A DNA stretch of 64,000 nucleotides from Erysipelotrichaceae bacterium (lineage in GTDB: Bacteria; Bacillota_I; Bacilli_A; Erysipelotrichales; Erysipelotrichaceae), in assembly GCA_017442805.1 (NCBI GenBank), contig JAFRZA010000025.1:1-64000 (forward strand). The letters run 5' to 3'. This document shows, piece by piece, positions 51,866 through 56,077 of this stretch. Below the pieces are notes generated by a model, which saw nothing but the letters and a program-made list of their open reading frames with translations, ran no database searches and was not told where the DNA came from. Position 1 is the stretch's first letter; every line of letters begins with the position of its first letter. Position numbers and translations under genes: made by a program.

Positions 51866-53074
51866 CTATTCCTCCACGGCGGCAGCTGCTTCTTCAACAG
51901 CTTCCTTGACTTCCTCAACTGCCTTCTTGGTTCTTCTGACCGTCTTCTTGACGGGCTCAGCAGCGGCTTCAACTGCTTCTTCAGCAGCTTCCTTGACCTC
52001 TTCAGCAGCCTTCTTGGTTCTTCTGACGGTCTTCTTGACGGTTTCGGCAGCGGCCTCAACGACTTCAGCGGCAGCTTCCTTGACTTCTTCGACGACAGCG
52101 GGAGCTTCCTCAGCGACAGCGGCAACAGTTTCCCTGACTTCTTCAGCAACAGCCGGAACTTCCTGGACTACGGCTTCAGCAGCAGCCGGGGCAGCTTCTT
52201 CAGTCTTCTGTTCAGCAGGTCTTTCTCTTCTGGTGAACGGACGGCGCTGACGGTTGTTCATCTGCTGACGTCTTTCTTCATTGCGCTGTTTTCTTCTTCT
52301 CTCGTTCTCAGCGTTCTGCTGATCAACGGCGATGATGACATCACTCATGGTGACTTCCGGAAGTTCATCCTCAGTATAGGCAACTTCCAGGACCTGTCCC
52401 TTGGCTTCCATGATGGCGTCGGCCATTAAGGATACCAGCAGCTTGATGCTCTTGACGGCATCATCATTGCCCGGGATGGCATGATCGACTAAGGCCGGAT
52501 CACAGTTGGTATCGCAGATACCGAATACGGGGATGCTCAGCTTCTTTGATTCCAATACAGCATTGTAGTCTTCCTTGGGGTCAACTACGAATACGGCATC
52601 GGGAAGCTTCTTCATTTCCTTGATTCCGCCTAAGAAGTTTTCCAGCTTGGCAGCTTCCTTCCTGATCAGAGCGATTTCCTTCTTCGGATAATTCTCGATC
52701 GTTCCGGTTTCTTCCATCTGTTCGATCTCAATGAGTCTTCTGATTCTCTTCTGAATCGTGCGGTAGTTGGTCAGAGTGCCGCCCAGCCATCTCTGATTGA
52801 CATAGAAGGAACCGCTTCTTAAGGCTTCTTCCATGACGACGGCCTGAGCCTGCTTCTTGGTACCGACGAACAGTACTCTTCCGCCCTTTTCGCTGATGGC
52901 CTTCAGTTCGTTGTAGGCAGCATCAACTGCTTCCTGGGTCTTTTCCAGGTTGATGATGTGGAAGCCGTTCTTGACGGTGTAGATGTTGGGTTTCATCTTC
53001 GGGTCCCATCTTCTGGTCTGATGACCGAAGTGAACGCCAGCCTCTAACAATTTGCGCATGGTAACAACTGACAT
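51866..53074 (-). CDS. rpsB: 30S ribosomal protein S2 with long repeat-rich C-terminal tail
   Basis: 402 residues. Residues 1 to about 235 are S2 ([40 protein letters not shown]). Typical S2 is 230-260 residues. The extra 165 residues start with an Arg/Gln-rich stretch (residues about 255-275), then Ala/Glu/Val-rich sequence and two 29-residue repeats containing [11 protein letters not shown]. The tail is in frame, with a continuous codon pattern, and tsf follows with a normal 1-base gap. Core function is certain; the role of the tail is unknown. Confidence 0.96.
51884..52057 (-). repeat. Two tandem 87-base repeats in the S2 tail
   Basis: Residues 340-368 and 369-397 share [11 protein letters not shown] followed by EEVKEA. 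At DNA level the copies are 87 bases apart and differ at scattered positions, so the repeat is not recent. Confidence 0.8.
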
Positions 53075-53268: not shown

Positions 53269-55083
53269 TCAGTCTTCCGCTTTTCCCAGCAGATTGCGCA
53301 GCTTAGCGCCCATGGAAATGTTGCCTTCAACCTTCATCTGCCCGTTGACGAACAGCTTGTCGGCTGAGACGGCTCCGGTAGCCATGTTGAACAGGTTGTC
53401 CAGGCTGGTGGCCAGTTTGACATCAGCGTCATCATAGCTGTAAGGCTGCATCTCCAGACCCTGCTTATTGACTTTCACATAGAAGGTTCCCTCACCGGGA
53501 CCGACAATGCGGATCTGAGCGACGACACTGAAGTCATCAGGCTGTCTGGCCAGATATTCGTTGCGGCTGATCTCCAGGTCCTCGTAGACGACCTTCAGGG
53601 CGTCATAGGCATCCTTGAAGGTGACGTTAGGATCGTGCTGAGATGAAGCGATGTCGGAATACATCTTGATGTAGGTCTGAGCTGACTTGTCCCAGGAGAA
53701 GTCCTTCTTCATGCAGCGCTCTCTCAGCTTCTTGAAGGTCTTACGCTCGGCGAAGTAGATCTTAATGGCTTCGTCGATTGCCAGCATCAGTGCCTTGGAA
53801 TTATATTCGGTGAAAGAGAAACCGTCACCGATGCCGTCGAAGTCGGAATACGGTCTGACGGTATCCTTCAGACCGCCGGTTTCATGAACGACCGGCACGG
53901 TACCGTAGCGCATGGCCATCATCTGCGACAGTCCGCAGGGTTCAAATTCAGAAGGCATCAGGTAGAGGTCGGCACCCGCAAACACCTTGGCGGCCATCTC
54001 TTCCGAATAGTCATCAGAGAAGCCCAGCTGACCCTGATAGACCTGAGTGTAATGGCGGAAATGATCGGTATATTTCTTTTCTCCCTGGCCGAAGATGATC
54101 AGCTGAATTCCCTTCTTCATTAATTCGGGAAGCAGTTCCATGATCAGGTCAACACCCTTCTGGGGAACCAGACGGGCTACTACCGTGAACAGAGGCCAGT
54201 GATTTTCCTTGCGCAGGCCGAAGAAGTCCTGCAGATAGTGCTTGCACTCCAGCTTACCGGCCATGTCATCAACCGAGAAGTTGGCTGGAAGTCTCTTGTC
54301 CTTGGAGGGATCGTAGTGGTCGGGATCGATGCCGTTGATGATTCCGTACATTTTGTCTTCGACCATGTCGGCCACCCCCTGCAGTCCCTTGCCGAACTTC
54401 GGGTTATGCAGCTCACGGGCGTAGGTCGGCGAGACCGTGGAAACGGCGTCGCTCATCAGCATGGCGCCCTTCATCAGGTTAACGTCGTGACGGCCTTCGT
54501 ATTCATAGCCCAGTCCTCCGGCGTACCAGCCGGGATCAAGGGCGAAGGTAGTGGTCAGCTGATCAGCGCCGTACTGGCCCTGATAGGCGATGTTATGGAT
54601 CGTATAAACCGTTCTGATGTTGCGGTATGTGGTATAAATGGTCTGATGATCACGCAGATAAATGATCGCCAGAGCGCTTTCCCAGTCGTTGCAGTGGAGA
54701 ATGTCTGGTACGAAATCAAGTAAGCGCAGGACGTCGATGACGGCCTTGGAGAACCAGGCGAAACGGAACTTGTCGTCGTCATAGCCATAGAGCCTGTCGC
54801 GGTTGAACAGATCCTCATTGTCGATGAACCAGACCTTGACGCCGTTGAGCTCACCCTTCAGCAAACCGCAATACAGCGTCGCCTGTCCCAGAGTCACGGT
54901 CGTGCTGGTGACCGGGGTGATCTGGGAGCCGAAACGCTCCTTGGCGCACTTGTAGTAAGGGGTGATGATCTGAATCTCCTCACCCTCTCTTTTCAGAGCG
55001 GGAGGCAGAGAAAAGGCCACATCGGCCAGGCCGCCGGACTTGGAGAACGGCGCGCATTCACTGGTAACAAACAGAATCTTCAT
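53269..55083 (-). CDS. glgA: Glycogen synthase fused to a C-terminal SCP2-like domain
   Basis: 604 residues. Residues 1 to about 485 are a GT5 glycogen synthase (ADP-glucose): KSGGLADV at the N-terminus, HCNDWESAL, and ESFEPCGLSQ-type motif reading SEFEPCGLSQMMAMRYG. Standard length is about 480. The last 110 residues resemble an SCP2 sterol-carrier domain, with ADKLFVNGQMKVEGNISMGA close to its C-terminus. The gene is alone between the xerC-side operon and rpsB; no glgC or glgB is adjacent. AGGAG is 9 bases before the ATG. Confidence 0.92.
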   Translation of the reverse strand: MKILFVTSECAPFSKSGGLADVAFSLPPALKREGEEIQIITPYYKCAKERFGSQITPVTSTTVTLGQATLYCGLLKGELNGVKVWFIDNEDLFNRDRLYGYDDDKFRFAWFSKAVIDVLRLLDFVPDILHCNDWESALAIIYLRDHQTIYTTYRNIRTVYTIHNIAYQGQYGADQLTTTFALDPGWYAGGLGYEYEGRHDVNLMKGAMLMSDAVSTVSPTYARELHNPKFGKGLQGVADMVEDKMYGIINGIDPDHYDPSKDKRLPANFSVDDMAGKLECKHYLQDFFGLRKENHWPLFTVVARLVPQKGVDLIMELLPELMKKGIQLIIFGQGEKKYTDHFRHYTQVYQGQLGFSDDYSEEMAAKVFAGADLYLMPSEFEPCGLSQMMAMRYGTVPVVHETGGLKDTVRPYSDFDGIGDGFSFTEYNSKALMLAIDEAIKIYFAERKTFKKLRERCMKKDFSWDKSAQTYIKMYSDIASSQHDPNVTFKDAYDALKVVYEDLEISRNEYLARQPDDFSVVAQIRIVGPGEGTFYVKVNKQGLEMQPYSYDDADVKLATSLDNLFNMATGAVSADKLFVNGQMKVEGNISMGAKLRNLLGKAED

Positions 55084-55180: not shown

Positions 55181-56077
55181 TTAACGGTTTTCAAAAGCCT
55201 TGTCATAACTCTCGCGCAGATGCTCGGAAGTTATGTGGGTGTAGATCTGGGTGGTCGAGAGATTGGAGTGACCCAATAGTTCCTGCACGATTCTGATGTC
55301 CGCTCCCTTGTCCAATAGATGGGTGGCAAAGGAGTGCCTCAGGGTATGGGGATGTACGTGCATGGGCAAGTTATTGTCCAGTACCGTCTTTTCCAAGAGA
55401 TACTGCACGCCCCGAGGAGTCAGTTTCTTTCCGTTCTTATTGACGAAAACATAATCATGCTCTTCCTTAAGATAACGGGGCCGGATGTTATTGAGATAAT
55501 TTCTTAACAGCTTTCCGATCATGTCATAGAACGGAACCAGACGCTGCTTTGAGCCCTTGCCGGTGATTCTTAACAACCGGTTGGAAAAGTCGATGTCGCC
55601 GATCTTCAGGTTGCAGGCTTCGGAAAGACGCAGTCCGCAGCCGTACATCGTCTCAAAGATGGTCCGGTTGCGGTAGCCCATGTCGTCATGGAGATCAAAG
55701 CAGCCTAACAGGGTATCAACTTCATCTTCAAACAGATAGTCGGGCAGCCGGTTCTTCTCAACCTTGATCTTCACCGCGGTAAAGGGATTGCCTTCGGCGA
55801 TCTTCATCTCATTGAGATAGCGGTAAAAACTCCGCAAGGCACTCAGATTACGGGCAATCGAGCGGTTGGAAATGTCGGAAAACTGCTTGTCAGTCCGCAG
55901 GTAGTTCAGATAGCCCAGTACCACCGTCCGGTCAGCGTCCGACCAGCCGGTTATTCCCTGCTGCTTCAAATAGGAAAGATAGCGCTGCAGATCCCGGCCG
56001 TAGGACTTGCGGGTATCTTCAGAGCCGCTGTTGACGTTTACGATGTAATCCAGGAAATTCTGAACATCCTGATCCAT
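55181..56077 (-). CDS. xerC: Tyrosine recombinase XerC-like
   Basis: 298 residues. SAM-like N-terminal domain, then a catalytic domain with the C-terminal HTLRHSFATHLL, LGHSNLSTTQIYTH, catalytic Tyr at YTH. Resolves chromosome dimers at dif. In the order topA-trmFO-xerC, as in Firmicutes, where hslVU-codY follow; those are missing here. Confidence 0.93.
   Translation of the reverse strand: MDQDVQNFLDYIVNVNSGSEDTRKSYGRDLQRYLSYLKQQGITGWSDADRTVVLGYLNYLRTDKQFSDISNRSIARNLSALRSFYRYLNEMKIAEGNPFTAVKIKVEKNRLPDYLFEDEVDTLLGCFDLHDDMGYRNRTIFETMYGCGLRLSEACNLKIGDIDFSNRLLRITGKGSKQRLVPFYDMIGKLLRNYLNNIRPRYLKEEHDYVFVNKNGKKLTPRGVQYLLEKTVLDNNLPMHVHPHTLRHSFATHLLDKGADIRIVQELLGHSNLSTTQIYTHITSEHLRESYDKAFENR

Follow-up and report, generated by a model that had tools for sequence, protein, structure and literature searches.

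A second glycogen synthase with a C-terminal SCP2 domain defines a distinct GlgA clade in Erysipelotrichaceae and Clostridia

Introduction

What could a bacterial glycogen synthase do with a domain of the lipid-carrier type? The question is raised by a gene on the minus strand (53269..55083) of a 64,000-nt stretch of DNA from an Erysipelotrichaceae bacterium, which was analysed as a whole and is referred to here as the window. An earlier note, made from the sequence of the window, had proposed that GlgA, which normally ends near residue 480, is here extended by an SCP2 tail of about 110 residues, and that this joining of polysaccharide synthesis to a hydrophobic-ligand domain could tie glycogen granules to membrane or lipid.

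Domain composition of the fusion protein

The gene is read from the ATG at 55083 down to 53269 (stop codon at 53271-53269) as an unbroken frame of 604 aa, and the same frame is present in 47 loci. The Pfam analysis of the window protein identified Glyco_transf_5 (aa 2–237, 255 bits), Glycos_transf_1 (aa 291–448, minus strand 53740..54213, 69.7 bits), which contains R304, K309 and E381, and SCP2 (PF02036, aa 521–599, minus strand 53287..53523, 48 bits, E-value 1.7e-12), the last with a score above the curated gathering cut-off of 21.3 bits. The NCBIfam model TIGR02095 (glgA) matches aa 1–477 with 522 bits (cut-off 328.45) and, together with phmmer (E-value 8e-81) and Foldseek, assigns aa 1–478 (minus strand 53650..55083) to GlgA (family GT5), with the GT-B fold. 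A short linker follows (aa 479–488, minus strand 53620..53649), in which the AlphaFold2 confidence drops below 50 at aa 481–485, and then the SCP2 domain as delimited by the predicted fold (aa 489–602, minus strand 53278..53619). Both the end of GlgA near residue 480 and the SCP2 tail thus stand as the note had proposed, with the PF02036 match lying inside the segment it had named (aa 490–604). In the source genome (1.82 Mb, 47 contigs) this protein is the only one with a match to PF02036.

Sequence, fold and conservation of the C-terminal domain

Scored on its own, the tail gives 51.7 bits with Pfam SCP2 and 19.9 bits with Alkyl_sulf_C (PF14864), the latter below the cut-off of 27, as is the score of the full-length protein (16.6 bits); the NCBIfam model of UbiT (NF047962) likewise stays below its cut-off of 46.9, with 33.2 bits. 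The comparison of the tail sequence profile with solved chains identified the fatty-acid-binding SCP2 from Yarrowia as the nearest (4jgx, E-value 3.3e-8), and rabbit SCP2 was also found (1c44, E-value 1e-7, profile positions 42–140). At the sequence level the tail leans toward the ligand-binding SCP2 proteins.

The AlphaFold2 model of the fusion protein, built on a 44-row alignment (A2), has a mean pLDDT of 86.6 and a pTM of 0.76, and the tail modelled alone (aa 459–604, 33-row alignment A3) has a pLDDT of 80.4. In the predicted structure two α-helices (aa 489–501 and 504–512) are followed by four β-strands (519–526, 532–539, 542–546 and 555–559), two further helices (561–569 and 574–579), a strand (583–587) and a C-terminal helix (589–598). 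A Foldseek search of the PDB with the tail model returned 47 matches with E-values of 0.001 or lower, with SCP2 proteins and alkylsulfatase domains of SCP2-like fold at the top. In pairwise superpositions (VIA-align) the top score belongs to the alkylsulfatase Pisa1 (2yhe: Z 13.7, 102 aligned residues, rmsd 2.1), followed by human SCP2 (2c0l: Z 11.8, 114 residues, rmsd 3.5) and the fatty-acid-bound 1pz4 (Z 11.1, 111 residues, rmsd 3.9), with Eis acetyltransferases at Z of about 10–11. The SCP2 fold of the tail is therefore well supported by the model, and structure prediction, which the note had recommended as a check, yields the complete fold.

Since an alkylsulfatase scores highest and the Eis acetyltransferases come close to Z 11, the fold by itself is no proof of lipid carriage. 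This is the point at which the main competing explanation has to be weighed, namely that the SCP2 fold has a structural role in the enzyme without binding lipid, as a dimer contact or as a lid or scaffold covering the GT-B cleft. This may also apply to other enzymes with an SCP2-like domain at the C-terminus, such as alkylsulfatases and Eis-type acetyltransferases, in which the fold does not necessarily carry a lipid. We consider this explanation possible, though rather unlikely. Alkylsulfatases and Eis-type acetyltransferases equal or beat the lipid carriers in the comparison above; on the other hand, Alkyl_sulf_C is a poorer sequence match for the tail than Pfam SCP2 and the fatty-acid and sterol carriers of known structure, and the substrates of alkylsulfatases are themselves aliphatic, which means that even this precedent is not lipid-free.

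With the SCP2/nonspecific lipid-transfer proteins (4jgx, 1c44, 2c0l, 1pz4) the tail shares the complete fold and the sequence signature; the difference is that here the domain is fused to a glucan synthase, and its ligand binding is putative. The alkylsulfatases SdsA1, SdsAP and Pisa1, which give the highest fold scores, are likewise bacterial enzymes with an SCP2-fold domain at the C-terminus, but their catalytic domain has the metallo-β-lactamase fold and their C-terminal domain belongs to Alkyl_sulf_C. Such a C-terminal SCP2-like fold is described for alkylsulfatases in the SdsAP paper (PMC5426288). In the Ubi system, according to two reports (PMC6747719, PMC9499169), the SCP2 domains of UbiJ and UbiT serve enzymes with lipid substrates. 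This is a precedent for the role proposed below for the fusion, but UbiJ and UbiT are separate proteins in a complex and are not fused to a glycosyltransferase.

The domain is well conserved. In a 48-row alignment the core positions of the tail remain hydrophobic, P547, D562, G581, G587, N588 and R596 are identical in all 48 rows, and Q523 is found in 47. The dN/dS values, calculated according to Nei and Gojobori for 14 close pairs of fused genes, amount to 0.03–0.27 for the SCP2 part (14/14 pairs), 0.01–0.07 for the glycosyltransferase part and 0.04–0.24 for the linker region in the pairs where it is defined. Because the values for the SCP2 part are this low in every pair, we conclude that the domain is retained by purifying selection.

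The GlgA part and its signatures

E. coli GlgA is the closest solved structure (2qzs: Foldseek E-value 9e-44, TM-score by target 0.89); aa 1–478 of the fusion align with the E. coli enzyme (2qzs, 3cop) over the full length, at 33% identity by Foldseek. K15, R300, K305 and E377 of the E. coli enzyme, which we take to be the catalytic residues of GlgA, correspond to K15, R304, K309 and E381. An E377A mutant is named in the title of the E. coli structure 3cop. R304, K309 and E381 are found in all 46 fused proteins compared and K15 in 45, the remaining one having a gap at this position.

The fused proteins also carry signatures of their own. His400 (minus strand 53884..53886) is invariant in them (46/46), against arginine in 70/70 ordinary GlgAs; F368 (46/46) takes the place of a tyrosine (70/70); and three additional residues are present at 191–193. 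The window protein misses the cut-offs of the NCBIfam GlgA equivalog models (the best, NF001898, gives 571.4 against 603, and the other GlgA models shown also fall short), which is consistent with a separate GlgA subfamily.

The histidine invites the idea that the enzyme no longer makes glycogen and instead transfers glucose to an acceptor bound by the SCP2 domain, either a lipid or a lipid-linked molecule, given that the arginine it replaces is invariant in ordinary GlgAs. We regard this as improbable, as the catalytic residues and the TIGR02095 score are those of a glucan synthase; the glg gene content of the fusion genomes bears on it too and is given below.

Ancestry of the fused clade

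In a tree of the glycosyltransferase part of 46 fused proteins and 70 ordinary GlgAs, made with a quick method and with SH-aLRT as the sole measure of support, all 46 fused proteins lie on one side of a single branch (support 100, stem of 1.23 changes per column). Seven ordinary loci (L137, L140, L144, L147, L148, L161 and L164), which were unrecognised by the start-motif rule, and two short fused rows (L059 and L074) are absent from this tree. Within this part, any two fused proteins share 62% identity or more, whereas their identity to the 70 ordinary GlgAs never exceeds 46%. The divergence of the glycosyltransferase part together with the fusion, with its long stem and the invariant R400H, Y368F and 191–193 insert, would be expected if the two domains touch, and counts in favor of the structural explanation considered above.

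Across 35 pairs of Erysipelotrichaceae and Clostridia genomes, the fused glycosyltransferase parts share on average 65% identity and the ordinary GlgAs 44%. Along with the patchy distribution of the fusion, these pair identities suggest transfer of the fused gene between lineages; the higher identity is also compatible with a fused enzyme under tighter constraint.

Distribution of the fusion

The earlier note had advised looking for the fusion in related genomes, where it was indeed found. A three-row alignment of the tail (A1) served to define two peptide patterns, with which the contigs of 84,980 species genomes were scanned; such a scan may miss distant fusions and, being based on the tail, cannot alone show the absence of unfused kin. 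It returned 55 loci, of which 47, located in 46 genomes, span the SCP2 domain, whereas eight (L089–L096) match the end of GlgA only, over 19 to 72 residues, and were excluded from the count. According to the record titles, 31 of the 47 come from Erysipelotrichaceae, Solobacterium or, once, an unclassified Firmicutes bin, and 16 from Lachnospiraceae, Oscillospiraceae, Clostridiales, Clostridia or Candidatus Ventricola; the sources are metagenome bins, many of them from ruminant rumen or gut. Two of the loci (L042 and L049) are the same genes, at the same coordinates, as in genomes G003 and G029, and are not independent of them. One Clostridia bin (G599) has two fusion genes (L081 and L085) on separate contigs, with unequal identity to the window protein.

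GlgA sequence and tail share one reading frame at every one of the 47 loci, four of which are truncated by contig ends. The 43 uncut loci and the window protein make up the 44 rows of alignment A2, and PF02036 (at E-values of 0.01 or lower), Glyco_transf_5 and Glycos_transf_1 are all matched in 44/44 of these proteins. An artefact (misassembly, a frameshift joining two genes, or contamination) might be suspected in a source assembly of 47 contigs with 4.5% contamination, but we consider it extremely improbable: the fusion keeps one frame in 47 loci of 46 genomes and is under selection throughout, and the gene lies on a 167-kb contig (C1) with the same gene order in L042. An error joining two genes was rejected on the recurrence of the frame in independent assemblies, and a contaminating contig is unsupported given the length of C1 and the matching gene order.

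Of 272 genomes of the source family, 46 have a listed fused copy (full or cut by contig ends; one with an internal TGA), and these genomes represent 4 of the 59 genera (codes g1, g3, g24 and g50). For the other GlgAs among the matches listed for this family, identity reaches no more than 43%, and the alignments stop near residue 480, except for two that end at 503 and 536. No unfused member of the fused clade is present among the matches listed. Samples of the source class (296 genomes) and phylum (392 genomes) contain, beyond the source genome, a single weak match in the class sample (E-value 8.8e-4, 25% identity), which we judge to be due to chance. Among 291 sampled genomes of the class of Candidatus Ventricola, the fusion was found in the Ventricola genome (G602) only. 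Among the matches listed for plasmids and phages (8 of 553 plasmid records, 5 of 16 phage records) are GlgAs with about 39–43% identity that cover 79–80% of the query, and carriage of the fusion by plasmids or phages was rejected on these matches.

A PF02036 match occurs in 9 of 145 relatives of the source organism, and most are without one. Apart from the fusions, the PF02036 proteins among these relatives (L035 and L037–L041) have about 538–586 aa and read as a flavodoxin-like reductase followed by an SCP2-like middle part and C-terminal membrane segments.

Genomic neighborhood

The ORFs flanking the fusion gene in the window share its strand and look, from their sequences, like xerC (55181-56077) on one side and rpsB (51866-53074) on the other. 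The rpsB-like ORF encodes 402 aa with a long, repeat-like C-terminal tail of Ala, Glu, Lys and Val; this tail is reduced in L003, a close relative whose ORF has 359 aa, upstream start included. Promoter-like signals (4, against 2.1 in shuffled sequences, sd 1.2) and terminator-like signals (1 against 1.9, sd 1.4) do not clearly exceed the shuffles.

Clustering of the ORFs around the 47 loci and the window revealed no conserved partner gene. The largest neighbor cluster comprises just 6 loci, and a conserved operon partner was rejected on this count; weak partners could be missed, as a long antisense ORF displaced the fusion gene in ORF picking at 10 loci. Two esterase-like genes and one ATP-grasp-like gene (by reading) lie beside the fusion gene at L086 and are absent from the other loci.

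The neighborhood bears on a further alternative, in which the SCP2 domain is a sensor: by binding acyl-CoA or a fatty acid it would turn the synthase on or off and so match carbon storage to lipid status. A domain that is linked in cis, kept by selection and placed on a storage enzyme alongside a normal GlgA in most genomes would suit such a role, but no regulatory neighbor is conserved among the 47 loci and the window, and we regard a sensor as unlikely.

Ordinary GlgA and other glg genes in the same genomes

The source genome encodes an ordinary GlgA (472 aa) on another contig (C27), right after genes that read as glgC (match at C27:34114-35178) and glgD. Because the usual glgC-glgD-glgA copy is located elsewhere in the genome, the fused GlgA is an additional paralogue. 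A separate match to ordinary GlgA, in some cases partial, is present in 42 of the 46 fusion genomes and was not found in G577, G589, G600 and G603. In G577 a glgC-glgD pair leads into a 31-residue GlgA match (E-value 5e-4) and in G600 glgC lies at the start of a contig, so that in these two genomes the absence may reflect an assembly gap. The ordinary GlgAs of five Clostridia fusion genomes (L167, L168, L169, L170 and L183) have 517–538 aa, about 40–60 residues over the usual length.

In a set of 49 genomes that includes duplicates (G003/G560 and G029/G567), glgC was found in 45 and glgB in 47. G603, which carries locus L086, has no match to ordinary GlgA, glgC or glgB, which argues against a simple glycogen role in this metagenome bin, although the bin may be incomplete. 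The case of G603 favors the glucosylation of a lipid acceptor discussed above, but the frequency of glgC and glgB in the set, and the possible incompleteness of the bin, speak against it. Upstream of the fusion gene in G603 there are genes that look like those of phage structural proteins.

Proposed function

Two domains in one frame form one old clade that keeps the known catalytic residues, and in which SCP2 is conserved and under selection; the pairing of polysaccharide synthesis with a domain of the hydrophobic-ligand type, claimed in the earlier note, is real. As to its role, we tentatively prefer the explanation that the protein is a second, lineage-specific α-glucan synthase (GlgA, GT5), in which the C-terminal SCP2 domain tethers or localises the active enzyme to lipid or membrane. 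A second GlgA would have permanently acquired the domain. As an ordinary GlgA with glgC and glgD is encoded elsewhere in the source genome, the fused copy would have been free to specialise. The fused enzyme would move glucose from ADP-glucose to α-glucan, for which the occurrence of glgC in most of the genomes searched is circumstantial evidence, and the SCP2 domain may hold a lipid in its cavity or meet a membrane surface. This would place the synthase, or its acceptor, at lipid, separately from the ordinary enzyme that the glgC-glgD-glgA operon encodes. A plausible use would be to start or hold glucan particles at a membrane or lipid body, and the tie of glycogen granules to membrane or lipid suggested by the note thus remains a plausible, and the leading, reading. 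Against placement at lipid counts that no lipid-metabolism neighbor is conserved across the 47 loci and the window.

A bolder version, in which the SCP2 domain supplies the GT-B active site with an acceptor that is a lipid or is linked to one, so that α-glucan chains start on a lipid primer and membrane-nucleated particles result, seems to us improbable. We know of no bacterial GlgA that uses such a route of polysaccharide initiation.

A parallel to the preferred reading, localisation of a second synthase at lipid, is offered by starch synthase 4 (SS4) of plants, for which one study (PMC8793873) describes association with plastoglobule fibrillin and an SS4-FBN1a interaction. SS4 is also a starch synthase linked to lipid structures, but through a partner protein and not through an SCP2 domain in the same chain. 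Compared with bacterial GlgAs, the fusion has the extra SCP2 domain, histidine at 400 and phenylalanine at 368 where the others have arginine and tyrosine, a clade of its own and a gene outside the glg operon. No description of a GlgA-SCP2 fusion was found in the full-text literature searched, which includes few subscription papers; an uncommented entry for the architecture may exist in domain databases. What appears to be new is not the GlgA or the SCP2 family, each of which is known separately, but their fusion as a distinct GlgA clade.

This fusion amounts to a hidden subfamily of glycogen synthases that occurs in dozens of species from gut and rumen and couples the synthesis of a storage polysaccharide covalently to a domain of the lipid type. 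Should this domain bind lipid, the site at which bacterial glycogen is started and the placement of glucan synthesis would become testable with one protein and a deletion of its tail.
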